Virus record (IMG/VR): IMGVR_UViG_3300010399_000056
Coordinates: 1 to 41,425 of that record
DNA from: a virus
Direction: 5' to 3' (one strand)
DNA length: 41,425 bases
The position numbers were made by a program, and so were the translations under genes. The notes below the pieces were generated by a model. The model was not told the origin of the DNA, did no database searches, and saw only the letters and a program-made list of their open reading frames with translations. Shown piece after piece: positions 22,790 through 40,062 of this stretch (position 1 is its first letter; every line of letters starts with the position of its first letter).

Positions 22790-22835
22790 GTACCGAACTA
22801 TACCACAAATAAAAACTTGTACAAGTATTTTATTT
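22764..22835 (-). repeat. 72-bp duplicated promoter segment, copy 1
   Basis: Matches 27160-27231 with one mismatch (G at 22773, C at 27169). It spans the end of the helicase gene, the operator palindrome, the promoter and the first codons of a leader frame. The two copies are 4396 bp apart in direct orientation. Confidence 0.92.
22797..22826 (-). promoter_or_regulatory. Leftward early promoter P1 with operator on its -35
   Basis: Read leftward: TTGTAC (-35, 22824-22819), 16 bases, TATAGT (-10, 22802-22797). The -35 is embedded in the perfect palindrome ACTTGTACAAGT (22815-22826), so a bound repressor would exclude RNA polymerase. It drives the cassette down to the 21460 terminator. Confidence 0.82.
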
Positions 22836-24209
22836 GTAGCCGCGTACCTTCATGGCGTCCAGCAGGATGTCCTGCACCTCGCGCTTGCTGTTCACCCGCT
22901 CGATCACCATCTCGTCCACCGTATCCGCAGCTATTATGTTGTAGATAAACATCGCCCGGTCGTGCCCGGCCTGCAGCTGCCGCGTGGGGCCGATCCGCTC
23001 GATGATCTGCATGCGCTCCTCCAGGTTCCACCAGTGCGAGAAGAACACCAGGATATTGCCGCCGTCCTGCAGGTTCAGCCCGTGGCCGGCGCTAGCCGGG
23101 TGGGCGAACAGCAACGGGATCCTGCCTTTGTTCCAGTCCTCGATGGTCTTGGGATCGGCGTCCAGCTGCCGGCCTTGGGGGAAAGCTTTCATCAGCCGGG
23201 CCAGGTCGGACTTGAAATGGTAGGCGACCAAGATCGGCATGCCTCCAGACTCCTCCAGGATGTCCTCCAGCGCGTCCAGCTTCGCGTCGTGGATGCCGCG
23301 CCACTCCTTGCCGTCGTCGCCAACATACGCCGCGCCGGACGCAATTTGCAAACATTTTACCGTCCTCGCAGCGGCGCCGAACGCCTCCACCTCGTGCTGG
23401 TCCAGTTCCATGAACATGCGTTTTTCCATGTCCTCGTACAGCGCCCGGGCCTTGGCCGGCAGATCGACGCGCACGTCGGTGACGACCGGCGCTTTCAGGT
23501 CAAACCAATCTTTGGCCTCGATGGTAATACACAGGTGCGCCAGCGCGCGCTGTATCTGCGCCTGGGCGTGGTCGCGCGGCGTGATCGAGTAGCCGTCGAA
23601 CGACTTTTCAAACCACCGCTGACGGAACGCGTCATAGGTCTTGCCGAGAGCCTGCCCGCGATCGAGGAACCACGCTTGCCCCCATAGGTCGGCCAGACCG
23701 TTGGGCGCCGGCGTGCCGGTCAGTTCGATGAACCGTTTCACCTTGGTGTGCGCCACCCGGCCCAGGGCCTTAGCGCGTGCGGTGCCTTGCCGCAGGCGGA
23801 ACCCTTTCAGCTTCGTCGACTCGTCGGCCACCACGGTGGCGAACGGCCAGCGCTCACCGAAGTGCTCCACCAGCCACGGCAACTGTTCGTAATTCGTCGT
23901 GTAAATATTGCTGTCGTACTTGAGCGCGGCCAGCCGTTCCTTTTCACTGCCGACGATCGGCGTCACCGACAGGTGTCGGAAATTGCGCCACTTGCGCGCT
24001 TCGTCCGGCCAGGTGGAGCGCGCCACGCGAAGCGGGGCAACGATCAGCACCGGGCGATTGTCCAGAAGCTGCAGCGTATCGACAGCGGCCAGGGTGGAGG
24101 AGGTCTTGCCCATGCCCATGCCCGCCCACGCCGCACCGCGCGGCGCGTCCAGCATGTGGTCGATGATCAGCTCTTGATAAGGGCGAGGGGTGAATTCGCG
24201 GGCGGTCAC
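22830..24209 (-). CDS. SNF2-type DEAD-box helicase/ATPase
   Basis: A 459-residue superfamily 2 ATPase likely used in replication or recombination. Motif I is AGMGMGKT (Lys35), motif II is VVADESTKLK, motif III is ELTGTPAPN, motif V is SAGHGLNLQ and motif VI is IIERIGPTRQ. The spacing and the PRPYQELIIDHML opening match phage SNF2-like helicases. The start is GTG 24209, overlapping the upstream stop (GTGA). The last bases lie in the 72-bp promoter repeat. It works with the polymerase and VRR-NUC genes of the same transcript; a direct replicative role is inference. Confidence 0.93.
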   Translation of the reverse strand: MTAREFTPRPYQELIIDHMLDAPRGAAWAGMGMGKTSSTLAAVDTLQLLDNRPVLIVAPLRVARSTWPDEARKWRNFRHLSVTPIVGSEKERLAALKYDSNIYTTNYEQLPWLVEHFGERWPFATVVADESTKLKGFRLRQGTARAKALGRVAHTKVKRFIELTGTPAPNGLADLWGQAWFLDRGQALGKTYDAFRQRWFEKSFDGYSITPRDHAQAQIQRALAHLCITIEAKDWFDLKAPVVTDVRVDLPAKARALYEDMEKRMFMELDQHEVEAFGAAARTVKCLQIASGAAYVGDDGKEWRGIHDAKLDALEDILEESGGMPILVAYHFKSDLARLMKAFPQGRQLDADPKTIEDWNKGRIPLLFAHPASAGHGLNLQDGGNILVFFSHWWNLEERMQIIERIGPTRQLQAGHDRAMFIYNIIAADTVDEMVIERVNSKREVQDILLDAMKVRGYK

Positions 24210-27159: not shown

Positions 27160-27231
27160 CCCGCCGCGCCAATCGCTGCGTCCATGTACCGAACTATACC
27201 ACAAATAAAAACTTGTACAAGTATTTTATTT
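27160..27231 (-). repeat. 72-bp duplicated promoter segment, copy 2
   Basis: Matches 22764-22835 with one mismatch. It begins with the stop codon of the DNA polymerase gene, as copy 1 begins with that of the helicase. Both carry operator, promoter and first codons of a leader frame. Confidence 0.92.
27193..27222 (-). promoter_or_regulatory. Leftward early promoter P2 with operator on its -35
   Basis: Same as P1: TTGTAC, 16 bases, TATAGT (27198-27193), with the palindrome ACTTGTACAAGT at 27211-27222 covering the -35. It re-initiates leftward transcription after the polymerase gene. Confidence 0.82.
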
Positions 27232-29620
27232 AATCCTTGCGGTAGCGATCTGCCTCAAAGCCAGCCGCAGCCAGCGGCAAGCCGGTCGCCCAGTCCGGCA
27301 CGCGCGCCATGAGCGCGGCCAGGTGCTCCGGGTTCCAATCCGGACTATCCGGGGCCTCGCAAATTATTTCGTCGTGCACAGTGAGGGTGATCTCGTAACC
27401 CTGGGCCTCGATTTCGTGCATGTTGGCTGCCATCACGTCGCGCGCGATTGCCTGGCAAATGTTTTCACAAATCATGCCCCCGTATGTGTGGATGCGCTCC
27501 CACTTCCGGGTGTATTGATTCATGCCCATGTACGAAATCGAGGTGCGGCCGCTGGCCGGCGCTTCCTCTTCCAGCTCGGCCTCTGCCTCGTGCTCGTTCT
27601 TGACCTTCTTTTTCTTCTCGGGCACCAGGGCTGGGCCGGGGTAGCACAGCGCGCGACCGGACGGCAGCACGATGCGCAGCCAGGCGCCATCACGTCGAAC
27701 CCGCACCTTGCCGCACTGGATCGTCACACCGGGGTTGGTGATGGCTTCGCGCACACTGACGTCGAGATCTTTCCAGAATTGTTTAACGTTGGCGTGGGCG
27801 TCACGCCAGCCCAGCACGAACGCTTCGCACACCAGCCACGCGCGCTCGCTCAGCCCGGTCAGTTTCAACGGGTTACGGCCGTGCTTCTGATGCCATTCCA
27901 GCATGATGCGAGAGCGGCCCATCACCTCGCCGGGGATCGCGCGGTGGGCCTTCTCGGCCATGTCCTCCAGGTCGATGCCGTAGGTCGCGGCACCGGTCAT
28001 GTACGCGCCCACCCCGCCCTCGTATCCAAGCATCAGCTCCTGCACCTTGCCGATCTGGCGCTGGTCTTTGGACACGTCTGATGGCGAAACGCCAAACGAC
28101 TTGGCGTAAGACAGCTTGTACAGGTCCGGACCGCGCCGCACGGGCTCGTCTTTGGCGTCCAGCTCCAACTCCGGCGCGGCGCCGGCTAGGCAAGCCTCGT
28201 AGTAATCCGGCCCCCGCATCCAGCTGCCGTTCTCCAGCATGAGGGTGTCGAACTCGGCGAACGCTTTCAGCTTCCATTGCTCGCCAGCCACCCAGGCTAA
28301 CACCCGGCCCTCGATGTTCGACAGGTCGGCCACCACCAGTTTGCGGCCGGGCGGCGCCACGATGCACCCCCGGATGGTGGAGCTGGTCAGCTTCATGACG
28401 TTATCGAACAGCAGATCGGCGTAGCCGCCTTTCAGGGCTTCAATGCCCTCGGTAATCTGCGGTGCCGGCAGCAGCCCGCGCGAGGGCAGGTTCTGCGGCT
28501 GGAACAGGCGCCCCGCCCACCTCCCGGTGCGGCTGGCGCCACAGAACTGCAGCAGCCCGCGCAAGCGGCTGTCGGCGCTGGTGCAACGGATCAGCACCCG
28601 GTATTTGCTGGTGCTGGTGGTGGACGCCTGGAGCCGGACGCGCAGTAGCTCTTTCAAGCCCTCGGGGATATCCGGGTCAGCGATACGCCGCTCCAGCGTG
28701 TCCTTTTTCATGTCGGGCAGGTCCACGCCGTACTCGGCCAGCAGGTACTCCAGCAGCTTGTCGCGCTGGGTGGCCGACTCAATGCCCTCGCCCGTCTCTG
28801 GATCGTAACCGGTCATCTGCTGGGCCTTCTCGCGCAGGACGATCTGCGCGGCGTCGACGGCGTTCACCGCGCATTCGGCCAGCTCCAGGTCGATCATGGC
28901 GCCGCGGTCGTTGATCAGCTGGTCAAGCTGCCACAGTGCCAGCTCCGCGCCGCGGTAATTCCACATCGGCATGATCTTGCTGGCCGCGCGCATGGCCACG
29001 ATGTCCTGGCCGGCATAGATCAGGAACTTGTGCCACTCAGCTGGGTGCGTGTCGCGCGTAGCGCGGCCGGCCCACGTCGCCGCGGCGGCCTCTTTCGCTG
29101 CCTTGTAGTCGGCCAGCTTCTCGCCGCCGGCGGTATCGCGCTTGCGGAACTTGAAAGCCTGGGGTTTGCAAAAAAGCTGGATCAATGCCTTGCCCGCTTT
29201 GTCCTTCGCCTTGTCCTCGGGGAGCTTAAGCGCCATGCACATTTGTTCCAGCTTGCCGGGCAGGCCGTGCGCCATGGCCTGCACCATGGTATCGCGCCAG
29301 CGGTGCAATGGGATTTTTAGTCCGGCCACGCGTTCCACGGTGCGGTCAAAACGGGAATTCTGAGCCCACACCTCGCCATCGCCGTTGCGCAGCTCGTCGT
29401 CAATCGCTTCGACATATTCGGCCGGCGCCAGCACCAAGTCGTCGTCGTCCACCAGCAGCCAGTCCTCACCGCCGGGCGTCAGGTCGCGCACCAGGATAGG
29501 GCCATCGCCCAGCGCCAACGCGCGGATCATGATTTCCACACCTTCGCTATAGCGGTCCACCCCGTTGGTGATCTGGAAGGGAGAAAAGGTTTCGTCGTCA
29601 AGCCAAACGCGGGTCGTCAT
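27230..29620 (-). CDS. Family A DNA polymerase
   Basis: Replicative polymerase of 796 residues. An N-terminal 3'-5' exonuclease is recognisable from LDDETFS (D-x-E, residues 8-10), NSRFDRTVERV and YAGQDIVAM. The polymerase has motif A (VVADLSNIEGRVLAW, near residue 440), an O-helix region KVQELMLGYEGGVGAY (motif B), and motif C TVHDEIICEAP near the C terminus. Acidic-basic insertion KKKKVKNEHEAEAELEEEAP lies between motifs B and C and is probably a surface loop. The start ATG overlaps the upstream stop. It is transcribed leftward from P3. Confidence 0.96.
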   Translation of the reverse strand: MTTRVWLDDETFSPFQITNGVDRYSEGVEIMIRALALGDGPILVRDLTPGGEDWLLVDDDDLVLAPAEYVEAIDDELRNGDGEVWAQNSRFDRTVERVAGLKIPLHRWRDTMVQAMAHGLPGKLEQMCMALKLPEDKAKDKAGKALIQLFCKPQAFKFRKRDTAGGEKLADYKAAKEAAAATWAGRATRDTHPAEWHKFLIYAGQDIVAMRAASKIMPMWNYRGAELALWQLDQLINDRGAMIDLELAECAVNAVDAAQIVLREKAQQMTGYDPETGEGIESATQRDKLLEYLLAEYGVDLPDMKKDTLERRIADPDIPEGLKELLRVRLQASTTSTSKYRVLIRCTSADSRLRGLLQFCGASRTGRWAGRLFQPQNLPSRGLLPAPQITEGIEALKGGYADLLFDNVMKLTSSTIRGCIVAPPGRKLVVADLSNIEGRVLAWVAGEQWKLKAFAEFDTLMLENGSWMRGPDYYEACLAGAAPELELDAKDEPVRRGPDLYKLSYAKSFGVSPSDVSKDQRQIGKVQELMLGYEGGVGAYMTGAATYGIDLEDMAEKAHRAIPGEVMGRSRIMLEWHQKHGRNPLKLTGLSERAWLVCEAFVLGWRDAHANVKQFWKDLDVSVREAITNPGVTIQCGKVRVRRDGAWLRIVLPSGRALCYPGPALVPEKKKKVKNEHEAEAELEEEAPASGRTSISYMGMNQYTRKWERIHTYGGMICENICQAIARDVMAANMHEIEAQGYEITLTVHDEIICEAPDSPDWNPEHLAALMARVPDWATGLPLAAAGFEADRYRKD

Positions 29621-29943
29621 AGGAGGTCACTAAAATCATCTTCAAGGGTTTCAAAATCGTCCGCCAGGAACAGCGCTACGACGCGTTCGCACGTGGCCAC
29701 GTCGAACATTTGCATATGCGCCTGGTGCTTCGGGATGCCGAGGCGCCGCGCCAGTTCGCTATACGCCCGGTTGCGGGTCATACGGCCCGACTGCCACAGC
29801 GGGTCGAACGCGGCGTGAGCCGCAATGCGCGCTTTGGCCAGGTCGCTGCCGGGCTCGGCGGGCTTTCCGTAATGCCGGGGTGTACGCCGTCCACGGCTGC
29901 GGCCGTAGATGATGTAATCCTCGTTGTCGTCAAAGTAGCTCAA
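29617..29943 (-). CDS. DUF3268-like protein lacking its zinc finger, with acidic tail
   Basis: A 108-residue protein; the start is TTG 29943, overlapping the HNH gene. Residues 30-90 (PGSDLAKARIAAHAAFDPLWQSG, RNRAYSELARRLGIP, HMQMFDVATCERVVAL) match the C-terminal half of the DUF3268 family. The usual N-terminal Cys4 finger is replaced by a Tyr/Arg-rich segment without cysteine pairs. The C terminus LADDFETLEDDFSDLL is nearly identical to a linker in the primase-helicase. This may be a replication accessory protein docking on a shared partner. ATGA overlaps the polymerase start. Confidence 0.7.
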   Translation of the reverse strand: MSYFDDNEDYIIYGRSRGRRTPRHYGKPAEPGSDLAKARIAAHAAFDPLWQSGRMTRNRAYSELARRLGIPKHQAHMQMFDVATCERVVALFLADDFETLEDDFSDLL

Positions 29944-30304
29944 GTTGTTCGTTCCACATATCCGGCCAGGTAAAAGCGCCCTTGGCCGCGTTTTCGCGCC
30001 AGTGCACTACGCGCAAATTCCAAGGCGCGTGCAGTCCGCACACCGTCTTGCCCATCTTCGGCACGATGTGGTCGACCACATACAGCTCGCCTGTCCAGCG
30101 CGTCAAACGCCGGGCCTGCGCGTAGGCGCGGGCGATCTGCTGGCGCTGCTCTGCTGTCAACCAGGGCGGCGTGGCGCGGCGCGTTTGCGCCCGGTGCACT
30201 ATGCCCTCTTTACCCTTTGGCCGCACCGGCATTCGCTGTTTGCGAATCACGAACAGCGGGCCGACGTGAAAGCCATCGGGCAGCGGCAAAGGGCGCTGGG
30301 TCAT
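29930..30304 (-). CDS. HNH endonuclease (early region)
   Basis: A 124-residue protein from ATG 30304 (ATGA overlap). The HNH core is clear at residues 74-105: ELYVVDHIVPKMGKTVCGLHAPWNLRVVHWRENAAKG, with the paired DHI, then HAPWNL and the N-x3-K end. The N-terminal part is basic and helical (TAEQRQQIARAYAQARRLTRW). Such early HNH proteins in phage replication regions may nick DNA or aid recombination; homing activity is possible, but no intron or intein is associated with it. Confidence 0.85.
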   Translation of the reverse strand: MTQRPLPLPDGFHVGPLFVIRKQRMPVRPKGKEGIVHRAQTRRATPPWLTAEQRQQIARAYAQARRLTRWTGELYVVDHIVPKMGKTVCGLHAPWNLRVVHWRENAAKGAFTWPDMWNEQLELL

Positions 30305-30558
30305 GCCAGACCTTTGCGCTTGCGGTAGTTGTCCATCAAAATGTCGTCGCCTTTCGGGCAGCGGTCCAGGGCATGCCATGCGCCGGGTTTTTGCGATTCC
30401 AACTTGTCACCAAGTGGGGTAACGCAACATTGCCACAGGCGCCAGGATTTCGGGCCGTTGCGCCGCGGGCTGGCCAGCAGGTACAGGCGCATGTAGGTCG
30501 CATCCAGTTTGCGCAGCCGTTCTATCTGTGCCTTGCGGCGTCGTTTCTTCGCGCTCAC
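30301..30558 (-). CDS. Small basic protein, function unknown
   Basis: An 85-residue protein. GTG 30558 is preferred to earlier in-frame starts because AGGAGCGG precedes it and GTGA overlaps the upstream stop. The N terminus is very basic (SAKKRRRKAQIERLRKLD). A WRLWQCCVTPLGDKLESQKPGAW segment and RCPKGDD follow. Three Cys (CC, C) do not form a standard finger. Probably nucleic-acid binding. Confidence 0.6.
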   Translation of the reverse strand: MSAKKRRRKAQIERLRKLDATYMRLYLLASPRRNGPKSWRLWQCCVTPLGDKLESQKPGAWHALDRCPKGDDILMDNYRKRKGLA

Positions 30559-30731
30559 AGCCCGCTCCTGGCCCTGCCGTGACGGAGTGCGCCGCAAGCG
30601 CATTTGAAAACGCCGACGCGGCGCACGTGTTTGGTTGTGCCGCGCGCGGTCATTTTGATATCGACCAGCGTGCGGTCTTCGGCCCAATCCCATTTATGTT
30701 TGGGGCCAAGGGTGCAGGGTTTAGTTTTCAT
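30555..30731 (-). CDS. 58-residue zinc-knuckle-like protein
   Basis: Not detectable by length cut-offs, but well supported by context: ATG 30731 overlaps the upstream stop, and the TGA overlaps the GTG of the next gene. Sequence begins MKTKPCTLGPKHKWDWAEDR, continues with a strand-like VDIKMTARGTTKHVRRVGV, and ends in FKCACGALRHGRARSGL. CAC plus an upstream Cys and His could bind one metal ion. The pattern (HKWDW, then KCACGA) resembles one-finger phage proteins. Function unknown. Confidence 0.65.
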   Translation of the reverse strand: MKTKPCTLGPKHKWDWAEDRTLVDIKMTARGTTKHVRRVGVFKCACGALRHGRARSGL

Positions 30732-31051
30732 TTTGGCCAGTACTCCTGTGGTATGTCGTCATGCGCCACGTCCTGGGCGCGCGCCTGGTTATAAAAGCCG
30801 TGCGGGTGTTGGGCGCACAGCGGGTGGGTGGTGCGGTGTGGGAAGTGCTGCCCCGCACCTGTGGCCGACATATCCGGCCCGCTGCAGTGGCACAGCCCGC
30901 GCTTGTTATACGCCCTGGCCTCAATGCGCCACCCCTTGCGGCTGCCGCACATCGGGCATTTCGGCACCACCTTGTATTCGTCCGGGTGGGTGCGCGTCAC
31001 GCGCCGGTGGCGGCAGGCCGAATGCCTGCAGCGCACGCTGTAAGTGGTCAT
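30728..31051 (-). CDS. Zinc-ribbon protein, function unknown
   Basis: A 107-residue protein. The N-terminal CRHSACRHRRVTRTHPDEYKVVPKCPMCGSRKGWR is a C-x4-C ... C-x2-C zinc ribbon; CHCSGPD and a CAQHPHGFYNQ tail may hold a second site. Many His and Cys point to metal binding. ATGA overlap with the 58-residue gene. Probably DNA or protein binding in the replication block. Confidence 0.7.
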   Translation of the reverse strand: MTTYSVRCRHSACRHRRVTRTHPDEYKVVPKCPMCGSRKGWRIEARAYNKRGLCHCSGPDMSATGAGQHFPHRTTHPLCAQHPHGFYNQARAQDVAHDDIPQEYWPK

Positions 31052-31066
31052 GGCTGCCGACTTCGC

Positions 31067-31249
31067 TTACTGCTCGGCGGCCATTTCAGCGCCCAGCAGC
31101 GCCACCGCCATCATGGCGTGTCCTTCTGGGTACTTGGCGACGATAGCGCGGATTTCCTGCTCGGCCGCTTTCACCTTGGCTTGGTTTTCGGGGCTTTGCT
31201 CCGCGATCGTGCCGCGAATGATCCGCAGCGTTTGTTTTTCTGGGGTCAT
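31067..31249 (-). CDS. Small helical protein, function unknown
   Basis: A 60-residue protein; ATG 31249 is favoured over one 12 bases upstream by the ribosome site TGGAGGAC. The sequence is one long charged helix and a second short one: TPEKQTLRIIRGTIAEQSPENQAKVKAAEQEIRAIVAK, then EGHAMMAVALLGAEMAAEQ. No motif. It follows the SSB-like gene after a UUCG hairpin. Confidence 0.6.
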   Translation of the reverse strand: MTPEKQTLRIIRGTIAEQSPENQAKVKAAEQEIRAIVAKYPEGHAMMAVALLGAEMAAEQ

Positions 31250-31263
31250 GGTGTCCTCCAAAT

Positions 31264-31281
31264 GGCCCGCCGAAGCGGGCC
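31264..31281 (-). other. UUCG intergenic hairpin after the SSB-like gene
   Basis: Read leftward: AACCC followed by GGCCCGC-TTCG-GCGGGCC, ending 14 bases before an ATG with GGAGG. It resembles the repeated 27-bp hairpin in shape and in the AACCC prefix. No T-run. Confidence 0.6.
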
Positions 31282-31290
31282 GGGTTGCAA

Positions 31291-31842
31291 TTAGGCCAGA
31301 TCGTCGGCGTCGGTGCCGTCGCCCAGGTCGTCGAAGTCGGATTCGTCCGCCGCTACGCCACCACCGGAAAACGCGTCCCCTGGTCCGTAGAACTGGACGC
31401 CGCCAAGCTGCGCGTTGATCCGCTTGCCGTACTGGTTATCCTGTGCCCACAATTCCAGCGACACATTGCAGTAGCAGCCCGAGTAAAGCACGCCGTCCTC
31501 TTCTACCAGCGGGGTTTTGTCACGGTTCAACGCCAGTGGGCGCACCGCACTGGTGGACGAAATGAACATCATGCCTTCAAAGCCTTCGTAGCTGGCCTTG
31601 CTGTCGCCGTCTTTCAGACACAGGCGGCCGCCCGATTTCAGTTCTTTGTAGATGGCGTCGGCCTTAGCACCCCACTTCTCTTTGCACACTGCCTTGATGG
31701 CTTCTTCGATGGTTTTGATCTGTGGGTCTTTCGGGTCGATCAGCCAGGAAGCGCCAAACACCGGCTTGTCGCCGCCGTTGACGGCTTCGGCCTTGAACAC
31801 TTTCAGGAATGCGGCGCGCACGTTGGTCAGTTTCAGTTTCAT
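31291..31842 (-). CDS. Single-stranded DNA-binding protein, DUF2815 type
   Basis: A 183-residue protein matching the DUF2815 family, proposed phage SSBs with the T7 gp2.5-like fold. It begins KLKLTNVRAAFLKVFKAEAVNGGDKPVFGASWLIDPKDPQIK and has YEGFEGMMFISSTSAVRPLALNRD, GCYCNVSLELWAQDN and GKRINAQLGGVQFYGPGDAF. The Gly-rich hinge and strongly acidic end (DESDFDDLGDGTDADDLA) are what an SSB protein-interaction tail looks like. The gene lies between DUF2800 and small genes in the P3 transcript, the usual company of DUF2815. Confidence 0.9.
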   Translation of the reverse strand: MKLKLTNVRAAFLKVFKAEAVNGGDKPVFGASWLIDPKDPQIKTIEEAIKAVCKEKWGAKADAIYKELKSGGRLCLKDGDSKASYEGFEGMMFISSTSAVRPLALNRDKTPLVEEDGVLYSGCYCNVSLELWAQDNQYGKRINAQLGGVQFYGPGDAFSGGGVAADESDFDDLGDGTDADDLA

Positions 31843-31859
31843 AATTTTTCTCTTTCAGG

Positions 31860-33434
31860 TTAAGCCAGGTCGGCGAAATCGTCGTCCGCTGGCAGGGTTT
31901 CAAAATCGTTTTCAACTTGCGGCGGCTGCCAGGCGGGCCGGCGATCGCTCGCCGGCGCAACCGAGGGCTTGCCGTCGCTACGGGTGATCAGGTTTTGCAG
32001 CTTGGCCCACTGCTTCGCGCCGATCAGCGGCTTGCCCTTCTCGTCCATCGCGGTGGTCAGCTTCTCCGCGCTGGTCGGGCTGATAAGGGTGAAGTCGTAC
32101 ATTTCTTCCTTCTTCAATCTGAACGACTTGAGCATGGCTTCGGCTTCCATTTCGTCCGAGAACTTGCGGTTGCCCTGCTTGCCCTCCACCAGCTTCCAGC
32201 CCGGCATGGCGCGGCCGGCCAGCAGTCGGCGCTCCATTTCCGCGCGCACTGCCTTGGCCCAGCCTTCCACCAGGTCCACGGCGTCCATGCACACCGCCAG
32301 GTGCCCGTCGTCCACGTTCGCCAGCCGGGTTTCAGCGCCATCAAGTGCCGGCCGGAGGGTCGGTTTCTTGATGGTGAAGCAGGCCGGGAACGTGTAGTTA
32401 GGATCGTCGTTTTCACCGGTGCCCGCCGGCTCCGCTTCGTGAAAGTCCACCGCCTTCGGCGCCACACCGTGCGCCACCGCCAAGATCTTTTCGGCATCGG
32501 CGATCGATACGGCAACTTCTCCTTTACCCAGCTTGATCAGGTTGTCGATCACGGGCAAAGGCACTTCCACCAGGTCGTCCTCGCCGATAACCGTTTCGGT
32601 CATCGCCTCGAAGTCACCTGCCACCGTGGCCAGCACCTGGTCGCGCAGCGCCGGGCAGCTGCCCTTCGCTTTGCAGAAGCGGCATTGGTCGTCGCCGGGC
32701 TTGAGCGCGTCGAGCGTGGCCGCGCCGATGTCGCCGCATTGCGCATCGCTGTGAGCCAGGAACATTGCTGCATTCGCTGCCTTGAGAGCTTCGGCCTCGA
32801 ACTCGAGCAGCTCTTCTACGGACACCACATACTCGTCGAAGTGATTCAGGCGAGGCTGGTGAATCCAGATCCGAACCCATTTGATCTCATTCAGCAGACT
32901 GTGCTCGCGGTAGGCTGCAACGCCGTAAAGCATCAGCTGGGGGTTGCCCCGGCGACGTTCCGGGTTTTCTGGCGTCGGTGCCGGGTACGAGGCGAACACC
33001 TGAACACCACGGCCGTATTTCAGGTCGCCCACCTCGAGCTCTTCGGCCAAAAAATCAAGGATAAGCGCATCTGTCGTGCCGAACTGGTCCGGGATCTCGC
33101 CTTCGAAGAACGACAGCCGCTGCTCCACCAGTAGTACTTTTCCGCTGGATCGGTTGCGAACCAGATCAATGTACTTCTGCACCTCGGTCGCCATTTCCGG
33201 GGTGATGGTCGCCATCTTCGCCACCCCGTGGTCCAGGTAGCTGAACGGCTTGCCCACGAACACCGCTGCGTCGAACTCCTGTTCAAGGCAACCGGCGGCC
33301 AAGGCGTGGGCCAGCGTGCCCTCTTCGGCGAACTCGCTGGAGCTGTCGGGCACGCCGGATTCCATCGCCAGCGAGCCGGCGCAGGCCATCCAGCGGTGCG
33401 CCGAGGACGGCGAGAGTTTAGCGTGTTCAGCCAT
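31860..33434 (-). CDS. DUF2800 family PD-(D/E)XK nuclease
   Basis: A 524-residue protein of the DUF2800 family, related to Cas4/RecB-type nucleases. The opening [21 protein letters not shown] and [16 protein letters not shown] are diagnostic. The nuclease core is [26 protein letters not shown] (D...D-x-K), followed by [24 protein letters not shown] looks like part of a metal or Fe-S site, as in Cas4-type proteins. The acidic end [14 protein letters not shown] repeats the shared tail motif. ATG 33434 is chosen; a GTG six bases upstream is an alternative. Likely an exonuclease in recombination or replication. Confidence 0.88.
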
Positions 33435-33612
33435 TGGCACCCCCGAACATCTTGAGCATTTTGATCATCGGCTTGGTGGTCTGCCCGGTCACGCTGATAT
33501 CGAGGATTTCACCGTCCGTTTTGCAGACCACATATTCCACCTCGGCGGCCTGGTCCATCTTCTGGAGCCGTGCCACCACTTCGGCGATCGTGCGTTTTTG
33601 TTGGCTAGCCAT
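33427..33612 (-). CDS. Small protein of the replication block, function unknown
   Basis: A 61-residue protein from ATG 33612 (ribosome site AAAGGTGG inside the previous gene). It is an N-terminal helix ([16 protein letters not shown]) with two strands ([21 protein letters not shown]) and a final helix ([11 protein letters not shown]). It overlaps the DUF2800 start. One Cys. No family recognised. Confidence 0.65.
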
Positions 33613-33712
33613 TTGGCACCACCTTTCCGTGTTCAACACGCCACCGCAGGCCGATCAGCGCGCAGGCAAAGCGCACGGCCTCGGCCATCGGTTTTGTCGT
33701 GGTTCCGGCCAT
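33605..33712 (-). CDS. 35-residue peptide of the replication block
   Basis: Sequence begins MAGTTTKPMAEAVRFACALI and continues with [15 protein letters not shown] before TAG. The short gap after the upstream stop (TGATCATG) and overlap with the next ATG support translation. A helix with one Cys and a basic strand. No known function. Confidence 0.55.
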   Translation of the reverse strand: MAGTTTKPMAEAVRFACALIGLRWRVEHGKVVPNG

Positions 33713-33714
33713 GA

Positions 33715-34167
33715 TCAGGCGGCCTCGATATCAGCCAGGAACGCGGCCAGGTCCGCCTGCGCCACCTGGCTGCCCGACTTCGCTTTGTACTTGCCCAGCA
33801 GCGCCAGCCCGGCTTCGCGGCCTTTGGCTTTCAGGAAGGCTTTGAACTTCTCTTCCACGTCCTTGGCGTAGTCCAGTTCGGTGACCGGCTCGCCGCTGCC
33901 GGCCAGATCTTCCTCGGCGGCCTTGTCCGCTTCCGCTTCCGCTTCCTTGGCCGCCTTGGCCTCAGCTTCCGCTTTTTTCTTCGCTGCCAGTTTCGCCTCG
34001 CCCCCGGCGATGGCCTGTTTAATCAGTTCTTCCTTCGACTGCGTGGCCTTTACTTCCGTTTTGACGGCGACTGCCGGCGCGCCGTTTGCGCCGGACATGT
34101 TCAGGATGGCCGAGGCCAGTTCACGGATGGCGGCGGCGTGGTCGTTGATTGCTTGTTCAAGGGACAT
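33715..34167 (-). CDS. Coiled-coil protein, first gene of the leftward early operon
   Basis: A 150-residue protein starting ATG 34167 with GAAAGGAAA upstream. Residues 1-25 are a helix, residues 35-95 are a highly charged Ala/Glu/Lys coil (EAKLAAKKKAEAEAKAAKEAEAEADKAAEE), and residues 96-150 a compact helical domain (VTELDYAKDVEEKFKAFLKAKGREAGLALLGKYKAKSG then QADLAAFLADIEAA). This C-terminal domain occurs in early genes next to DUF2800/DUF2815. First in the P3 transcript, so abundant early. Function unknown. Confidence 0.7.
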   Translation of the reverse strand: MSLEQAINDHAAAIRELASAILNMSGANGAPAVAVKTEVKATQSKEELIKQAIAGGEAKLAAKKKAEAEAKAAKEAEAEADKAAEEDLAGSGEPVTELDYAKDVEEKFKAFLKAKGREAGLALLGKYKAKSGSQVAQADLAAFLADIEAA

Positions 34168-34207
34168 GCTATTTCCTTTCGGTTAGGGTTTGCGTTAATG
34201 CCCAGCC

Positions 34208-34238
34208 ATTAAGCCACAAGAAAAAACTTGTTGCAAGT
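34208..34238 (-). promoter_or_regulatory. Leftward early promoter P3 with variant operator
   Basis: Read leftward: ACTTGCAACAAGT (34238-34226) contains the -35 TTGCAA, then 17 bases and CTTAAT. The stretch from the operator through TTTGTGG-like bases closely resembles P1 and P2, so it is a diverged third copy. It drives the coiled-coil gene and the replication block. Confidence 0.75.
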
Positions 34239-34270
34239 CTTTTTCACAAAATATTTTTGTACTAAATTTT

Positions 34271-34316
34271 GCTTGTACAAGTTGACTTTTCCGCGCATAC
34301 TCCCGCTTGTACAACC
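34271..34316 (+). promoter_or_regulatory. Rightward promoter P4 with two operators
   Basis: TTGTAC (34273-34278), 17 bases, CATACT (34296-34301). Operators GCTTGTACAAGT at 34271-34282 cover the -35, and GCTTGTACAAC at 34305-34315 lies over the expected transcription start. It drives the Cro-like gene, implying strong autoregulation. Confidence 0.75.
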
Positions 34317-34332
34317 ACACATGGAGAACCGT

Positions 34333-34569
34333 ATGTCCCGTAAGAAGAAAGAACCGACCGGCATTGAAAAGGCGATCGCCGCCGCCGGCAGCCAGGCACA
34401 GCTGGCGCGCGAGCTGGGTTGCACCCAGCAGAATGTTAGCCTGTGGCTGGCGCAAGGCTGGGTGCCCGCCAAGCGCGCCCAGGAGATCGAGATGCTGCAC
34501 GGCGTGCCACGCAAATCGCTAGTGGATCCGCGCTTGCTGGAGCGACTGGATACCGAGGTGGGGCTGTGA
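34333..34569 (+). CDS. Cro/YdaS-like repressor
   Basis: A 78-residue DNA-binding protein. ATG 34333 has GGAG seven bases upstream; an ATG at 34321 in frame would add four residues. The helix-turn-helix is AGSQAQLARELGCTQQNVSLWLAQGWVPAKRAQEIEMLHG, the typical YdaS/Cro pattern with a Gly in the turn and Q-x2-V-S-x-W in the recognition helix. It lies directly after P4 with its two operators, so it should autoregulate and, through the same palindrome, repress P1, P2, P3 and P5. It has no dimerisation or cleavage domain like CI, so it resembles a lone Cro. Binding to the palindrome is inferred from location. Confidence 0.85.
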   Translation: MSRKKKEPTGIEKAIAAAGSQAQLARELGCTQQNVSLWLAQGWVPAKRAQEIEMLHGVPRKSLVDPRLLERLDTEVGL

Positions 34570-35075
34570 GCGCGCCAGCCGAGTTGCCGCCGCTGCCGCA
34601 TGCGTACCTCATCTACCAAGTCAGCAGCGATAGTGATTTCGCAAGCAACTGGGGATCCGCGTACACCGCCGACCAGATGCGCGAATACGGCAGGCAATGC
34701 GCTGCCCTCGCCACTGCTCCCGCATCCCCGCAGCCAGAGCTGAGCGGCAGTATCGATACAGATGAATTTTCAAAGCTCTTGGCCGAAGTCTCCATGTTGT
34801 GGTTGCAAGACCCACTTCGCTATGCACATGCGCGTGAGAAACTTGTCACCCACATCGACGCCTGGAAAGATGCCGCGCTGGCCGAGCTGCACCCGCTGTG
34901 GCTGGCCGAGAAGGAGCGCGCTGATAGGCTGCAAACCCAGTCCAACGAAGAGGCGCTCGACAAGCTGCTGGCCGACGTGCCCTCGTATTGCGTCCACCAG
35001 TTCGAGCCCGACGGACAATCGCACGGGAAAACCTTCTGGCGCTGCAGCAAGTGCGGCGCGGAGCGCCAGCGGTGA
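34566..35075 (+). CDS. Early protein with C-terminal Cys motif, function unknown
   Basis: A 169-residue protein with GTG start overlapping the repressor stop (GTGA). The opening PAELPPLPHAYLIYQVSSDSDFASNWGSAYTADQMREYG resembles a short phage domain (the Y-T-x-DQMR-xYG pattern) common in early proteins. The middle is helical with a probable coiled coil. The end CVHQFEPDGQSHGKTFWRCSKCGAERQR is a zinc-ribbon-like tail (C ... C-x2-C). Mixed domain make-up suggests a regulator or adaptor. Function unknown. Confidence 0.68.
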   Translation: MSAPAELPPLPHAYLIYQVSSDSDFASNWGSAYTADQMREYGRQCAALATAPASPQPELSGSIDTDEFSKLLAEVSMLWLQDPLRYAHAREKLVTHIDAWKDAALAELHPLWLAEKERADRLQTQSNEEALDKLLADVPSYCVHQFEPDGQSHGKTFWRCSKCGAERQR

Positions 35076-35284
35076 GAACCAACACGCATAAGCGGGGCAC
35101 GCACCGCCGCGACCGCAAGCCGAGCGGGCCTGTTCGCGTGCCCGATGCCGATGTACTGGCCATGCGCCATATGCACGAGGTCGAGCGCAAGGCGTTTCAC
35201 CTCGTGGCCCGTGCTTTCCCTCAGTACAGTGAAAATTACGTGCACCAGGTGCTGCAGTACTCCGTGCGCGCTGGCGTAAAATAG
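35072..35284 (+). CDS. Small basic protein, possibly DNA-binding
   Basis: A 70-residue protein, GTG start overlapping the previous stop. The N terminus is very basic (RTNTHKRGTHRRDRKPSG). The C-terminal half is helical: VLAMRHMHEVERKAFHLVARAFPQYSENYVHQVLQYSVRAGV, with a helix-turn-helix-like rhythm. Position right after the repressor suggests a regulator of early transcription. There is no firm match. Confidence 0.62.
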   Translation: MRTNTHKRGTHRRDRKPSGPVRVPDADVLAMRHMHEVERKAFHLVARAFPQYSENYVHQVLQYSVRAGVK

Positions 35285-35313
35285 TTGACACACGAACAAA
35301 AGGAACCCTCTCG

Positions 35314-35592
35314 ATGACCCGCATCAAACTTTTCCTGTTCTATTCGCTGATGGCCTGGGCCTCGGCAATCCGCCCCGAGGAGGGCGCCAAGATGATCGAC
35401 GACGCGGAGGCCGGGGCGCTCGAGCGTGCCCGGCGCCGACTGATCCACGATATCCACCACAACGGCGCCGTGCAACGTGAATTGCGCACGCCAGGCAACG
35501 GCACGGTAGCGCTGGCCATCACCCTGGCATTGATGGTCACGGGTGGGTGGATCGCGTTGCTGGTCGAGGCTGCCTTGGAGCTGATGCGATGA
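35314..35592 (+). CDS. Small membrane protein, function unknown
   Basis: A 92-residue protein. AAAAGGAA 10 bases before ATG 35314 is the ribosome site, and CCCTCTCGAT overlaps the start codon. The N terminus is moderately hydrophobic (IKLFLFYSLMAWASAI), the middle is charged (EGAKMIDDAEAGALERARRRLIHDIHHNG), and residues 66-88 (TVALAITLALMVTGGWIALLVEAA) form one confident membrane segment. Probably a tail-anchored inner-membrane protein. It could be involved in exclusion or host takeover. Confidence 0.68.
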   Translation: MTRIKLFLFYSLMAWASAIRPEEGAKMIDDAEAGALERARRRLIHDIHHNGAVQRELRTPGNGTVALAITLALMVTGGWIALLVEAALELMR

Positions 35593-35801
35593 AACACCTG
35601 GACGAAATCGAATATTACGCCGCCATTCGCGCCAAGGGCCGTGGCGTGTTCGCCGATGTGGTGGCCGACCGGCTGGGCATCGAGTGGAACCGGGCTGAAT
35701 ACCTGCTGGAGAAGTGGACGCGCGCCGGCTGGTGGGAATGGGGCGTTTCGCTGCGCTCGGGCTGGCTGACGGACGAGGCGCCGCAGGAGCTGACAGCGTG
35801 A
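35589..35801 (+). CDS. Small winged-helix-like protein
   Basis: A 70-residue protein; ATGA overlaps the membrane protein stop. The sequence KHLDEIEYYAAIRAKGRGVFADVVADRLGIEWNRAEYLLEKWTRAGWWEWGVSLRSGWLTDEA has the order helix, helix, recognition-like helix, then two Trp-rich strands, like a minimal winged helix. Phage genes of this type sit next to DNA methylases and regulators. Binding site and role unknown. Confidence 0.65.
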   Translation: MKHLDEIEYYAAIRAKGRGVFADVVADRLGIEWNRAEYLLEKWTRAGWWEWGVSLRSGWLTDEAPQELTA

Positions 35802-36307
35802 AACGTGTTCTTGATCCGTGCTGCGGCAGCCGCATGATGTGGTTTGACAAGGCTGACCCCCGCGCCGTTTTCGGCGACCAGCGCAGCGAAACAATTGTGG
35901 TTACAGATCGCACACACTGCGACGACGGAACGCGCACCTTGCAGATCACTCCGGATACCGTTATGGACTTTCGGGCAATGCCGTTCGCCGACGATAGCTT
36001 TCGCCTAATCGCCTTTGACCCGCCCCACTTGGAGCGCGCAGGCCCGAAAAGCTGGCTGGCGGCGAAGTACGGCAAGCTTTCCGACGACTGGCGCGCCGAC
36101 CTGCGCGCCGGCTTTACGGAATGCTTCCGTGTGCTGGAGCCGGAAGGCGTGCTGGTGTTCAAGTGGAATGAAACCCAGGTAAAGCTCAAGGAAGTGCTGG
36201 CGCTCACCTCACACCGGCCGCTGTTCGGGCAGGTAAGCGGACGCGCAGGCCTCACGCATTGGCTGGTGTTTATGAAGTCTTCGGACGATTTTGCCGATCT
36301 GTTATAA
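35798..36307 (+). CDS. DNA N6-adenine-type methyltransferase
   Basis: A 169-residue class I SAM methyltransferase with GTG start overlapping the upstream stop. Motif I is VLDPCCGSRMMWFD, motif IV is AFDPPHL (DPPx, typical of amino-group DNA methylases such as N6-adenine or N4-cytosine types), and the late FKWNETQVKLKEVLAL with HWLVFMK completes the fold. It probably protects phage DNA or marks it. The exact target is not visible because the TRD is minimal. It ends in SSDDFADLL, the same acidic tail as the nuclease and replication proteins. It ends just before P5. Confidence 0.87.
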   Translation: MKRVLDPCCGSRMMWFDKADPRAVFGDQRSETIVVTDRTHCDDGTRTLQITPDTVMDFRAMPFADDSFRLIAFDPPHLERAGPKSWLAAKYGKLSDDWRADLRAGFTECFRVLEPEGVLVFKWNETQVKLKEVLALTSHRPLFGQVSGRAGLTHWLVFMKSSDDFADLL

Positions 36308-36318
36308 CTTTTTGATCT

Positions 36319-36347
36319 AACTTGTACAAGTTTTGCCGGGGTACAAT
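36319..36347 (+). promoter_or_regulatory. Rightward promoter P5 with operator
   Basis: AACTTGTACAAGTT (36319-36332) is a perfect 14-bp palindrome. TACAAT at 36342-36347 is a good -10. The TTGTAC -35-like hexamer is only 14 bases away, so the exact -35 is unclear. A start near 36354 would place the 5' end of the RNA at the beginning of the structured leader. Confidence 0.7.
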
Positions 36348-36353
36348 TCCCGC

Positions 36354-36459
36354 AGCCAAACCTTTACAAACAGTATGCCCCGGTGGGGCGCTTCGCATCC
36401 CGGTACTGGCCGGGAAGGTTTGGCGACCGCGAAGCGCTCCACCGGGGCATTTTTATTTT
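36354..36459 (+). ncRNA. Structured RNA leader, copy 1 (new family with 40614-40722)
   Basis: Begins at the predicted P5 start. 5' strand GCCAAACC (36355-36362) is exactly complementary to GGTTTGGC (36417-36424). The outer stem pairs 36375-36396 with 36429-36450: 22 pairs with one G-U (36387:36438). Inner hairpin A is CCCGG/CCGGG (36399-36403, 36410-36414), then AA, then hairpin B GGTT/GACC (36417-36420, 36425-36428) directly against the outer stem. A TTTTTATTTT tract follows, then GGAG six bases before the methyltransferase TTG. The 5' strand would compete with or pseudoknot to hairpin B. Transcription attenuator, antitermination signal or small RNA are all possible. Confidence 0.8.
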
Positions 36460-36469
36460 GGAGTGCCAA

Positions 36470-37945
36470 TTGATTGACATTACTTTCGGCGGGGTCTGCA
36501 GCGGCATATCGGCCCCTGCTGTCGCCTGGCATGTGCTGGGCTGGCGGGCCGTGTGGGAGGCCGAGATAGAGGACTTCCCGTCCAAGGTGCTCGCGCACCA
36601 TTACCCCCAAGTGCCGAACCTGGGCGACATGACCAAGATCGCCGCCATGGTGCGCGCGCGCCAAGTCGCCGCGCCCGACGTGCTGGTGGGCGGCACCCCT
36701 TGCCAGGCCTTCTCTGTGGCGGGCCTTCGTGAATCGCTGGACGACGCGCGCGGCCAGCTTACCCTTGCTTATGTGGAGCTTGCTGATGAAATCGATCGCG
36801 TCCGAATTGCCGATGGCGAACCTGAATGTATTATCGTCTGGGAAAACGTCCCCGGCGTCCTCAACACCAAAGACAATGCCTTCGGCTGCTTCCTTGCCGG
36901 CCTTGCCGGCGAAGATTGCGCACTCGTCCCTCCAGGGGGAAAATGGCCGAACGCTGGTTGTGTGTATGGACCCAAAAGGACAGTCGCGTGGCGGGTCACA
37001 GATGCCCAATATTTCGATGTGGCCCAACGACGCGCGCGTGTGTTCGTTGTCGCAAGTGCTCGTGACGGGTTTGATCCCGCAGAGGTACTTTTTGAGTTCG
37101 ACGGCGTGCGCCGGGATACTCCGCCGAGCCGCGAGCCGGGGCAAGAAACTGCCGGCACCCTTACAGGCAGCCTTGGCCGCCGTGGCGGGCAGCCAGATTG
37201 CGGCAGCACTCCCGGACTGCTCCAGCCAGTCGGAAGACTGGGCGGATCTGATCTGATCTGCATGGCTCACGGGCAGGGTGGCGCGGAGATAAGATTCGAC
37301 TCGGCGCCGACACTGACATGTAATCACGAGGCGCCGATAGCCGCTTATTCTGTGGCACTGCGCGGCCGCGAAGGTGGCGCGACTGCCGAACTGGGTGACG
37401 ATTTGGCCAACTGCCTGCGCGCCAGCGGCGGCGGCGGGGACAAACCGCATGTGCTGGCACCGGTGTGCATCCAGAACGCCACGCGCGGCAAAGACCAGAA
37501 CGGCCTTGGCGTCAGTGAGCCGGGCGCGCCCATGTACACCCTGGATCAGGGCTCACAGCACGGCGTGGCCTATGCTTTCGACAGCCGTCAGGAGTGTGTC
37601 AGCAGTCCGCACGTGTTCGGCGCGCTTGGCTCGTCCAGCCCGCAGGCGCAGGCCGTGGCCACCGAGTGGGAGCTGGTGGGCGGCTGGGCGGTGCGCCGCC
37701 TGATGCCGATCGAGTGCGAGCGCCTGCAGGCCTTCCCAGACAACTACACCTTGATCCCGGTGAAGAAGGCGAAGAAGCGCAGCAAAATGTACGACTACGC
37801 CGAGATTGACGGGCAACTGTGGCAACTCGCTGCCGACGGCCCGCGCTACAAAGCCCTGGGCAATTCCATGTGCGTCTTCAATATGCGCTGGATCGGCCAG
37901 CGCATCCACAACCACCTGACAAACCCATACGGGGACTTGATCTAA
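36470..37945 (+). CDS. DNA (cytosine-5) methyltransferase
   Basis: A 491-residue C5 methylase. Start TTG 36470 has GGAG six bases upstream and places motif I at the very N terminus, as is usual: IDITFGGVCSGISAP. Motif IV is GGTPCQAFSVAG with the catalytic Cys78, motif VI is ENVPGVL, motif VIII is QRRARVFVVA, and motif IX/X is CERLQAFPDNYT followed by YKALGNSMCVFNMRWIGQRI. The target-recognition region between VIII and IX is long (about 200 residues) and Gly/Thr-rich. It probably shields phage DNA from restriction. It is expressed from P5 through the structured leader and coupled to the primase-helicase by TAATG. Confidence 0.95.
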   Translation: MIDITFGGVCSGISAPAVAWHVLGWRAVWEAEIEDFPSKVLAHHYPQVPNLGDMTKIAAMVRARQVAAPDVLVGGTPCQAFSVAGLRESLDDARGQLTLAYVELADEIDRVRIADGEPECIIVWENVPGVLNTKDNAFGCFLAGLAGEDCALVPPGGKWPNAGCVYGPKRTVAWRVTDAQYFDVAQRRARVFVVASARDGFDPAEVLFEFDGVRRDTPPSREPGQETAGTLTGSLGRRGGQPDCGSTPGLLQPVGRLGGSDLICMAHGQGGAEIRFDSAPTLTCNHEAPIAAYSVALRGREGGATAELGDDLANCLRASGGGGDKPHVLAPVCIQNATRGKDQNGLGVSEPGAPMYTLDQGSQHGVAYAFDSRQECVSSPHVFGALGSSSPQAQAVATEWELVGGWAVRRLMPIECERLQAFPDNYTLIPVKKAKKRSKMYDYAEIDGQLWQLAADGPRYKALGNSMCVFNMRWIGQRIHNHLTNPYGDLI

Positions 37946-40062
37946 TGGCCACACCGCAAACCCTCCCTACCCTCCTGCCCGTCACCGTCGACGGCATCCC
38001 CGCCAGCATGCTCGACACCCCCCGCTGGGCGCCCTGGCGCGCCATGTGGAACGACAAGAAGCAGAAGTACGAGAAAATCCCGCACCGCTCCGACAAGCCG
38101 CAGTATGGCCTGTCCAGCCAGACCACGCGCGGCTGGTCCTCCTTCCACGACGCCATGCGCGCTTACCAGCGCCAGCCAGACAAGTTCGCTGGTGTTGGCT
38201 ACCTCATGACCGGCGCCCACGGCCTGGTGGCGGTGGATCTTGACCACTGCGTGAAGGATGGCGAGATTGCCCCCTGGGCCGCCGAGGTGGTGGCCAAGCT
38301 GGACAGTTACACCGAGGTGAGCCCGTCGGGCAATGGCCTGCGCATTATGCTGGAAGGCGAGATAGAGCGCGATTGGACCAACCACGAGCGCGGCATCGAG
38401 GTGTATGGCGGCCTGGACGCCCGGTTCGTGACGATCACCGGGGCCAAGGTTGAGGGCAGCTCGCCGCGGGTGAGGAAGCCACGCCCAGGTGCTATGGACG
38501 AGATCACCGCCCGCTACCGCAAGGCCAAGACTTCGGCCCAGGTGCAGGACTTGCACCTGCCGCCGCTGCTGGGCGACGACGAGCTGCCGGACCTGGACGA
38601 TATCGACTTGCCCCCGCACGCCAAGAATTTCCTGGTCGACGGCCCGGGCCCGGCCGATGACCGATCGCGGCTGATGTTCGCCACCGCCATCGCGCTGCGG
38701 CAGTCCGGACTGTCCCACCAGCAAATCCTGTCGATCATGGAAGCTAACGAGCATTTCATGGAAGCGGCGATGGACCACCGCAAGCAGGATTACGACAAGA
38801 CCCTGCGCTATCTGTGGGACCACCATTGCAAGGCGGGGGTGGCGCGCGCCGAGGAGTTGCGACAGCTGGACCTTGCGCAGTTCGATGACATGGACCTGTC
38901 CGAAGGCGTGCAGGATGAACAGGAAGGGGCTGCCATGCGTGATTCGACACCAGACCGGGGGCAGAGTGTGGCCGACGACTTCGAGGCCTTGGAGGACGAT
39001 TTTAGCGACTTGCTGAGCGCACCCCCGCCCAAGCCGGTCAAACTGCCCCGATTCACCCCGCTACCGGCCGCCACGTTCATGCAACGCAAGCCGGGCAGCT
39101 GGATCATCAAGGGGGTGTTGCCCAAGGCTGGGCTGGTGCTGGTGTACGGCGACAGCGGCGCCGGCAAGACCTTCCTGGTGCTGGACCTGGTGGGCGCGGT
39201 GGCGCGTGGTGCCGACTGGCGCGAGCATAAGGTAAAGCGGGGCCGCGTGGTGTACGTGGTGGCCGAGGGCGCCAGCGGGTTCCAGAAGCGGCTCGCGGCC
39301 TATTGCCAGTTCAACGGCATCGACCCCGAAGACCTGGATTTGTTGGTGATTCCGGACGTACCGAACCTGATCGACAAGGGCCACATGAAGGAACTGATCC
39401 CCGCGCTCAAGAAGGCCGGCCCGGTGGCGGTGGTGGTGATCGACACCTATGCCCGCGCGATGGCCGGCGCCAATGAGAACGACGCCAAGGACACCGGCCA
39501 GGCGGTGGCCCACTGCGACCTGATCCACCGAACCACCGGAGCACTGGTGATGCTGGTCCACCACAGCGGCAAGGATGGCAGCAAGGGCGCACGGGGCAGT
39601 GGTGCGCTCAGGGCAGCGGCCGACGCCGAGCTGGAGGTGGTGCAGCTGCGCGACTATCGGGTGGCCACCGTCACCAAGATGAAGGATGGTGAGGACGGCA
39701 AAGAATATGCGTTCAAATTGCAGGAGGTGGTGCTGGGGCAGGACGACGAGGGCGACCCTATCACCTCCTGTATCACCGAGGCGCGCGCCACCCAGCCACG
39801 CCATTTGGTGGTCCAGCGGCGCCCACTCACCGAGCGCCAACAGATGGTGATGGCACTACTGCAGGACGCCCAGGACTTGACCGGCGAGGGGTTGCACTTC
39901 GCGGTGCTCAAACAACAGGCCGTGGAACGCATTCCTTTTGATGGAAACAGCCACCGGGACAACCGCGGGCGCGATGTGACTAGGGCAATTGAGTCGCTGG
40001 TGGATGGTCAATATGTAGAAAAATGCGAAGATGGCGTGTTAAAAATTGCAGATAGCATTTAA
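37945..40062 (+). CDS. Primase-polymerase/helicase (AEP primase with RepA-type ATPase)
   Basis: Replication initiator of 705 residues. N-terminal prim-pol domain: FAGVGYLMTGAHGLVAVDLDHC (catalytic D-x-D, residues 98-100), then SPSGNGLRIMLEG (metal and nucleotide site). A helical PriCT-type region follows (RSRLMFATAIALRQSGLSHQQILSIM). The linker near residues 340-360 carries DDFEALEDDFSDLL. The C-terminal domain is a RecA/RepA-like ATPase: GDSGAGKT near residue 405, VVVIDTYARAMAG (Walker B region), and LVMLVHHSGKDGSKGARGSGALRAAAD. A winged-helix-like end follows. The repeat cluster after its stop is a likely binding target. Confidence 0.92.
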   Translation: MATPQTLPTLLPVTVDGIPASMLDTPRWAPWRAMWNDKKQKYEKIPHRSDKPQYGLSSQTTRGWSSFHDAMRAYQRQPDKFAGVGYLMTGAHGLVAVDLDHCVKDGEIAPWAAEVVAKLDSYTEVSPSGNGLRIMLEGEIERDWTNHERGIEVYGGLDARFVTITGAKVEGSSPRVRKPRPGAMDEITARYRKAKTSAQVQDLHLPPLLGDDELPDLDDIDLPPHAKNFLVDGPGPADDRSRLMFATAIALRQSGLSHQQILSIMEANEHFMEAAMDHRKQDYDKTLRYLWDHHCKAGVARAEELRQLDLAQFDDMDLSEGVQDEQEGAAMRDSTPDRGQSVADDFEALEDDFSDLLSAPPPKPVKLPRFTPLPAATFMQRKPGSWIIKGVLPKAGLVLVYGDSGAGKTFLVLDLVGAVARGADWREHKVKRGRVVYVVAEGASGFQKRLAAYCQFNGIDPEDLDLLVIPDVPNLIDKGHMKELIPALKKAGPVAVVVIDTYARAMAGANENDAKDTGQAVAHCDLIHRTTGALVMLVHHSGKDGSKGARGSGALRAAADAELEVVQLRDYRVATVTKMKDGEDGKEYAFKLQEVVLGQDDEGDPITSCITEARATQPRHLVVQRRPLTERQQMVMALLQDAQDLTGEGLHFAVLKQQAVERIPFDGNSHRDNRGRDVTRAIESLVDGQYVEKCEDGVLKIADSI

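Follow-up and report, generated by a model that had tools for sequence, protein, structure and literature searches.

Why should five proteins of one phage, otherwise unrelated and encoded on both strands, carry much the same short acidic peptide built around one aromatic residue, and what reads it? The question is raised by the IMG/VR virus record IMGVR_UViG_3300010399_000056. The window analysed here is the whole stretch from position 1 to 41,425 of that record (41425 bases), and its gene set consists of 60 genes, called by a codon model trained on known replication genes. An earlier note on this DNA placed the peptide on a DUF3268-like protein, a primase-helicase, a DUF2800 nuclease, a methylase and a single-stranded DNA-binding protein (SSB), and the sequence contains each of these five peptides in frame. 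The features needed for the argument are the following.

22830-24209, minus strand: SNF2-type helicase (PF00176, phrog_62), without the tag in the window, conserved in the module
27230-29620, minus strand: family A DNA polymerase (phrog_17, E 3.9e-96), without the tag, the rival candidate for receptor
29617-29943, minus strand: DUF3268-like protein (PF11672, E 3.6e-18), tag DDFETLEDDFSDLL at the C-terminus (29620-29661)
31291-31842, minus strand: gp2.5/Enc34-type SSB (PF10991, Enc34_ssDNA-bd, DUF2815, E 7.4e-37; phrog_112), tail ESDFDDLGDGTDADDLA at 31294-31344
about 31363-31842, minus strand: OB-fold core of the SSB, the proposed receptor
31860-33440, minus strand: DUF2800 exonuclease (PF10926, E 8.4e-89; phrog_69 exonuclease), C-terminal tag at 31863-31910
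35714-36307, plus strand: N6-type DNA methyltransferase (phrog_954, E 1e-72; start at 35834 according to the codon model), tail SSDDFADLL at 36278-36304
36633-37256, also listed from 36729, plus strand: open frame overlapping the Dcm gene (36533-37945), ending SEDWADLI (37230-37253)
37945-40062, plus strand: primase-helicase (DNA primase PHROGs phrog_13901, phrog_1829 and phrog_2850; AAA_25), tag DDFEALEDDFSDLL in the interdomain linker (38974-39015)

On most carriers the tag is bipartite. Its first part surrounds one aromatic with acidic residues, roughly D-[DE]-F-[DE]-x-[LVI]; its second part, a few residues further on, is again acidic and forms the carboxyl terminus with D-L-hydrophobic. 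In the window the core takes the form D-D-F-x-x-L, and the shared DDFxxL peptide described earlier is indeed found on all five proteins, with the qualification that the first half of the bipartite tag is absent from the methylase and that the core of the SSB is SDFDDL, not DDF. The SSB has an acidic C-terminal tail ending DDLA. In the exonuclease a strongly conserved block, GKPSVAPESDKRPAL, stands directly before the tag near the C-terminus, in the window (31863-31997) as well as in relatives.

The likeness is not explained by chance. The core pattern [DENS][DE][FWY][DESTANQ].[LVIMF], sought in the last 30 residues, is found in four of the 60 called genes (exonuclease, SSB, N6 methylase, and DUF3268). 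Shuffling these residues gives 0.41 carriers on average and at least four in only 13 of 20000 shuffles, and a chance origin is therefore rejected. The DUF3268 protein and the primase-helicase are identical at 13 of 14 residues, the top 14-residue match among 1770 protein pairs of the window, where the runner-up has 9/14. It could be supposed that tag DNA has been copied between genes by recombination and serves no function, as neighbouring genes hold near-identical peptides. However, the tag codons of DUF3268 and the primase-helicase differ at many synonymous positions, so this pair is not a recent DNA copy, and recent copying between genes is rejected on that ground. Against L012, the closest relative compared, identity is 71% in the linker motif and 23% in the 30 residues preceding it. 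Functionless copying by recombination is thus hardly credible.

A sixth carrier, missed by the earlier note, is possible. The frame overlapping Dcm holds a conserved PQR[YF]FLS..C.GILRRAEKRGK block and looks like a real overlapping gene. Both frames are open in 10 listed loci, of which the window is one and two are identical; the overlapping frame has 140-213 codons in them and in four of the 10 ends D-L-hydrophobic (SDLL, SDLV, HDLI, and ADLI).

The tag is widespread among related phages. Relatives consist of 256 loci gathered by protein and six phage genomes; the first set, including the window, has 266 records with 5137 distinct genes. Later additions are 80 loci with a family B polymerase, seven with a Firmicutes-type exonuclease, and 17 further named phage regions. 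In the first set the core is found in the last 30 residues of 150/180 distinct SSB genes, 105/194 exonucleases, 6/9 DUF3268 genes, and 1/9 of the N6 family, compared with 45/4337 other genes. The exonuclease count is a floor because many of the misses have a related tail outside the strict pattern and others are broken or partial frames; on some exonucleases (the L001 group) the tag is altered, and the aromatic column is invariant in an alignment of 34 exonuclease rows. Polymerase (0/167 relatives) and SNF2 helicase (0/119) do not have the core in their last 30 residues. Within the primase-helicase the core occurs anywhere in 77 of 108 distinct relatives, as against 26 of 167 polymerases and 21 of 119 helicases. 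Of the other carriers, 12 form the biggest cluster, a family of small proteins containing cysteine to which bbp41 of BPP-1 belongs, the gene just before the BPP-1 polymerase.

A search for the motif in related phages, as the earlier note had proposed, thus finds it on SSB, exonuclease and primase-helicase, and it also finds homologues without the tail, which make up 8/9 of the N6 family. Such homologues, if they lacked any pattern of co-loss, were to count against a shared tag. One locus bears on the pattern. At 9977-11122 of L157 a DUF2800 exonuclease ends right after DKRPAVTN, without the tag, and a DUF2815 SSB was not found in that locus; it is the only clear DUF2800 exonuclease found with neither an SSB nearby nor a tail. 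Among seven relatives fetched with the L157 protein, the SSB is present in 7/7 and the exonuclease tail with Phe in 7/7. This would fit co-loss of tail and SSB, in one case only. Another variation is seen in DUF2815 SSBs of Firmicutes prophages (L172, L183, L148, L175, and L177), where NPITG, DPITG or DPLTG near the end replaces the acidic tag; three of these have a terminal PF like the host SSB.

While the tails differ between phages, their letters are often matched within one genome. In Enc34 the primase ends DPFDDEDEV, ORF3 GEEEEV, the exonuclease AYDDEDEDDDEV, and the SSB AYDEDEDEWDEDEV. The corresponding ends in KPN U2874 are NPFDDEDDDEV (primase), AYDDEDDDDEV (exonuclease), and DEDDDV (SSB). 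UF_RH7 has AFEDVDDDL on the primase, EEGDGL on gp3, AFESMDDDL on the exonuclease, DDDEDGL on the SSB, and AFDDDDL on the SNF2 helicase. Jersey-type SS5 has TEGDLE (primase-helicase), TEDDLE (exonuclease), and VDDLED (SSB); in BcepC6B the primase ends DFEGSDLA and the exonuclease ADDGSDLA, and DEFEDVA is found on both the SSB and the small cysteine protein of L242.

In 21 named phages, a set neither blind nor fully independent because the genes were picked from annotation and a few phage pairs are related, the exonuclease tail scores on average 26.7 against its own SSB tail and 20.8 against those of other phages (0/10000 permutations), and the primase tail 19.6 against 16.7 (2/10000). For the SNF2 helicase tail the values are 18.1 and 15.7 (208/10000, n=16). 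The polymerase, as a control, scores 13.4 with its own SSB and 13.3 with others (4293/10000, n=18). Among the SSBs of the named set, the own one ranks first for just 5/21 exonucleases and 3/21 primases. In 158 genomes, the distance between SSB tags is a predictor of that between exonuclease tags in a regression that takes the core distances of exonuclease, SSB and helicase into account (coefficient 0.26, 0/999 permutations), and same-genome similarity in this set exceeds that of within-cluster shuffles (2771 versus 2494, s.d. 42, 0/5000). A fine-scale control gave no such effect: when the own SSB tag is compared with that of the nearest relative having a different SSB tag, the exonuclease match is better in 68 genomes, worse in 80 and tied in 10. 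The match therefore holds between lineages and is not visible among close relatives, and common ancestry and common acidity account for part of the concordance.

A gene-wide scan against the own SSB tail (3531 genes) places the exonuclease family near the top with 80/136 at a score of at least 22, together with the small cysteine family (4/9); over all genes other than exonucleases the rate is 2.9%. There are hits, too, among terminase small subunits, N6/N4 methylases, and Cro-like repressors, and the carriers include some packaging proteins and methylases. Terminase small subunits of L209, L237 and L024 end like the SSB tail of their own genome (QDEFGDLA, IDDLV, and DGLLA). The window gene at 91-525 ends ENDGLLA. 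Tag-like tails on Cro-like repressors are LDDFQQVTR (L018, 30510-30758) and EFDDLSESK (L033, 8136-8423).

Could such tails have no specific receptor at all? Acidic tails may be general on phage proteins that handle DNA, through DNA mimicry or for solubility, and their likeness would then come from composition and ancestry. Tails of the Enc34 type consist mostly of acidic residues, and the failed nearest-relative control also fits. However, neither the rarity of the observed count among shuffled window tails nor the 13/14 identity between two unrelated proteins is expected from composition, and the same is true of the invariant aromatic column and of the polymerase control without effect. We consider the reading improbable. 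A conserved peptide on functionally different DNA proteins, which tracks the own SSB tail across distant phages, is most simply read as a docking tag, and the results suggest one that is shared and gathers enzymes on single-stranded DNA. The earlier proposal of a common docking site stands to this extent; its choice of partner, a separate replisome protein, does not hold as well, as the following comparison of candidate receptors indicates.

The genes for SSB, polymerase and SNF2 helicase lie close together in most loci. Where a locus has the exonuclease, the SSB and enough flank, polymerase is present in 132/138 and SNF2 helicase in 128/138. The polymerase is the obvious candidate, since in T7 the acidic tails of the primase-helicase gp4 bind basic patches on the polymerase gp5, according to PMC12593628 and PMC8472574, and the T7 record shows acidic tails both ending DF on the SSB (gp2.5) and on gp4. 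The T7 pair also makes the earlier statement that no shared tag of this kind had been described too strong. By this analogy basic patches of the phage polymerase would bind the tails of SSB, primase-helicase and other enzymes, and the regular presence of the polymerase and its own lack of a tag are consistent with such a role. Nevertheless, polymerase A is missing from six loci. Its place in the replication module is taken by a family B polymerase (phrog_1252) in L032, L055, and L076 and, where read, by a VapE-type helicase in L173, while L201 and L231 overlap or are near-identical to L076. The tags stay where family B replaces family A. In the 80 family B loci, with 62 exonuclease, 61 SSB and 59 SNF2 helicase frames, no polymerase A was found, yet tags are still present on SSB and exonuclease. 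The kind of tag is also unchanged between family B and polymerase A genomes that share up to 76% identity in the SSB core. This swap argues against T7-like binding to basic patches of the polymerase and lowers the polymerase as sole receptor, a reading that we regard as rather unlikely.

Other replication proteins were considered as well. The SNF2 helicase is not favoured because in UF_RH7 it has a matching tail of its own and in the Enc34 group an acidic end. A phage sliding clamp was considered on the basis of an annotation in Acinetobacter phage 4316, which is the only sign of a clamp that was noticed. The motif that binds sliding clamps is a Gln-led hydrophobic pentapeptide, and the tags of the window contain no Gln. 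The annotated gene of phage 4316 (L023, 21062-21640) is called DNA polymerase III subunit beta and lies beside the phage polymerase.

The receptor may also belong to the host. The C-terminal tip of bacterial SSB is acidic with terminal hydrophobics (Pro-Phe) and serves recruitment, so a host protein that reads it could be captured by a mimic. Acidic residues followed by terminal hydrophobics do resemble the tip, and some Firmicutes prophage SSBs end PF. Most tails, however, lack a terminal Pro-Phe (those of the window end LA or LL), the copy in the primase-helicase is internal, and the tag persists in phages of widely differing hosts while tracking the phage SSB. A host receptor is very unlikely.

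The SSB fold itself is more likely to be the partner than a separate replisome protein. The polymerase never carries the tag, and the tag survives the exchange of polymerase A for B. We favour a reading in which the tag mimics the tail of the phage's own SSB and docks in the groove of the SSB OB fold, recruiting its carriers to SSB-coated single-stranded DNA, and give it slightly better than even odds (about 0.52). The groove as the docking site is what we infer from sequence comparison and from crystals of related SSBs. According to PMC5686142, the tails of the Enc34 SSB, two other DUF2815 SSBs and T7 gp2.5 contact a neighbour in crystals, the Enc34 tail lying in the groove, and 11 C-terminal residues of the Enc34 SSB are not visible. 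From the residue count given there and the deposited sequence, not from coordinates, the visible trace of this 200-residue protein ends GRVDTSDAYD, and AYD is the core common with the Enc34 exonuclease. Note that such contacts can be packing effects. Solved relatives of the window SSB are 4JG2, 5ODJ, and 4KLK. An AlphaFold2 model was made of a single chain joining the L013 exonuclease tail, a spacer and the SSB core, with 34 tandem alignment rows in which the Phe of the tag is invariant. The modelled core, a close relative of the window SSB, has pLDDT near 90 and matches 5ODL, 5ODJ, 4JG2, 4KLK, and 1JE5. Over the leader blocks pLDDT is 41, 49, 65, 48, and 43, with the modest peak at the TPVADDFEAL block. 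The peak gives slight support to docking, for which the SSB core is the sole folded body in the chain, although the place of the tag in the model could not be seen.

According to the mechanism proposed here, the tag would be a copy of the C-terminal tail of the phage's gp2.5/DUF2815-type SSB, retained by selection at the protein level. Its aromatic core would dock into the concave groove of the OB fold, where the SSB's own tail sits in crystals, and an enzyme bearing a copy would displace an SSB tail and so be recruited to SSB-coated DNA. The exonuclease would thereby be brought to the annealing protein, with DUF2800 and SSB acting as a nuclease-annealase pair. The primase-helicase would be brought to lagging-strand DNA, and the methylase and the DUF3268 protein to newly made DNA. 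A possible extension, which we hold to be doubtful, is a lineage-specific recognition code, in which exonuclease, primase-helicase, modification and even packaging proteins are matched to their own SSB through its tail, so that they change as a set and stay apart from the proteins of any co-infecting phage.

If docking on the SSB is correct, phages with a gp2.5/DUF2815-type SSB and a DUF2800 nuclease would rely on one peptide code, with the SSB as its reader, to replicate, recombine and modify their DNA. The usual picture of the SSB as a hub would be inverted, with the tail on the partners and the pocket on the SSB. Unknown members of the phage DNA machinery could be found by their tails from sequence alone, and the crystal contact reported in 2017 would become a testable functional site.

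How does this compare with known systems? The T7 system resembles this one in that acidic tails containing an aromatic are found on both the primase-helicase and the SSB, whose fold is the same as here. Its known carriers are two, with a DF end, whereas here there are at least five, including exonuclease, methylase and DUF3268. The aromatic stands at the extreme C-terminus of both T7 proteins; here the core is internal to the tail, as in the window SSB, and the primase-helicase copy lies in a linker. The proposed receptor differs as well. In the bacterial SSB system, the SSB has the peptide and its partners have the pockets, while here the partners carry copies of the peptide. Another likeness is found in eukaryotes, where acidic motifs of repair proteins dock on RPA70N. 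There too a single acidic-aromatic peptide, present on many unrelated proteins, docks on an OB fold, but those proteins are unrelated to the phage ones and the SSB does not have the motif as its own tail. Enc34 ORF6 belongs to the same DUF2815 SSB family, and its docking tail segment is the core found on other Enc34 proteins; the available part of PMC5686142 discusses the SSB's own tail only and makes no mention of copies on other proteins. HSV ICP8 is likewise an annealing SSB with a disordered, Phe-bearing tail, in which FNF docks on a second ICP8 (PMC12409425), although the proteins are unrelated. The duf2800-gp2.5-polA gene module has been noted earlier, as PMC8093625 records. Searches of open-licence full texts listed nothing recognisable as a description of phage proteins, whether exonuclease, primase, methylase or others, that bear copies of the SSB tail. 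A docking peptide of the replisome is already known; what appears to be new is that the partners carry copies of the SSB tail.
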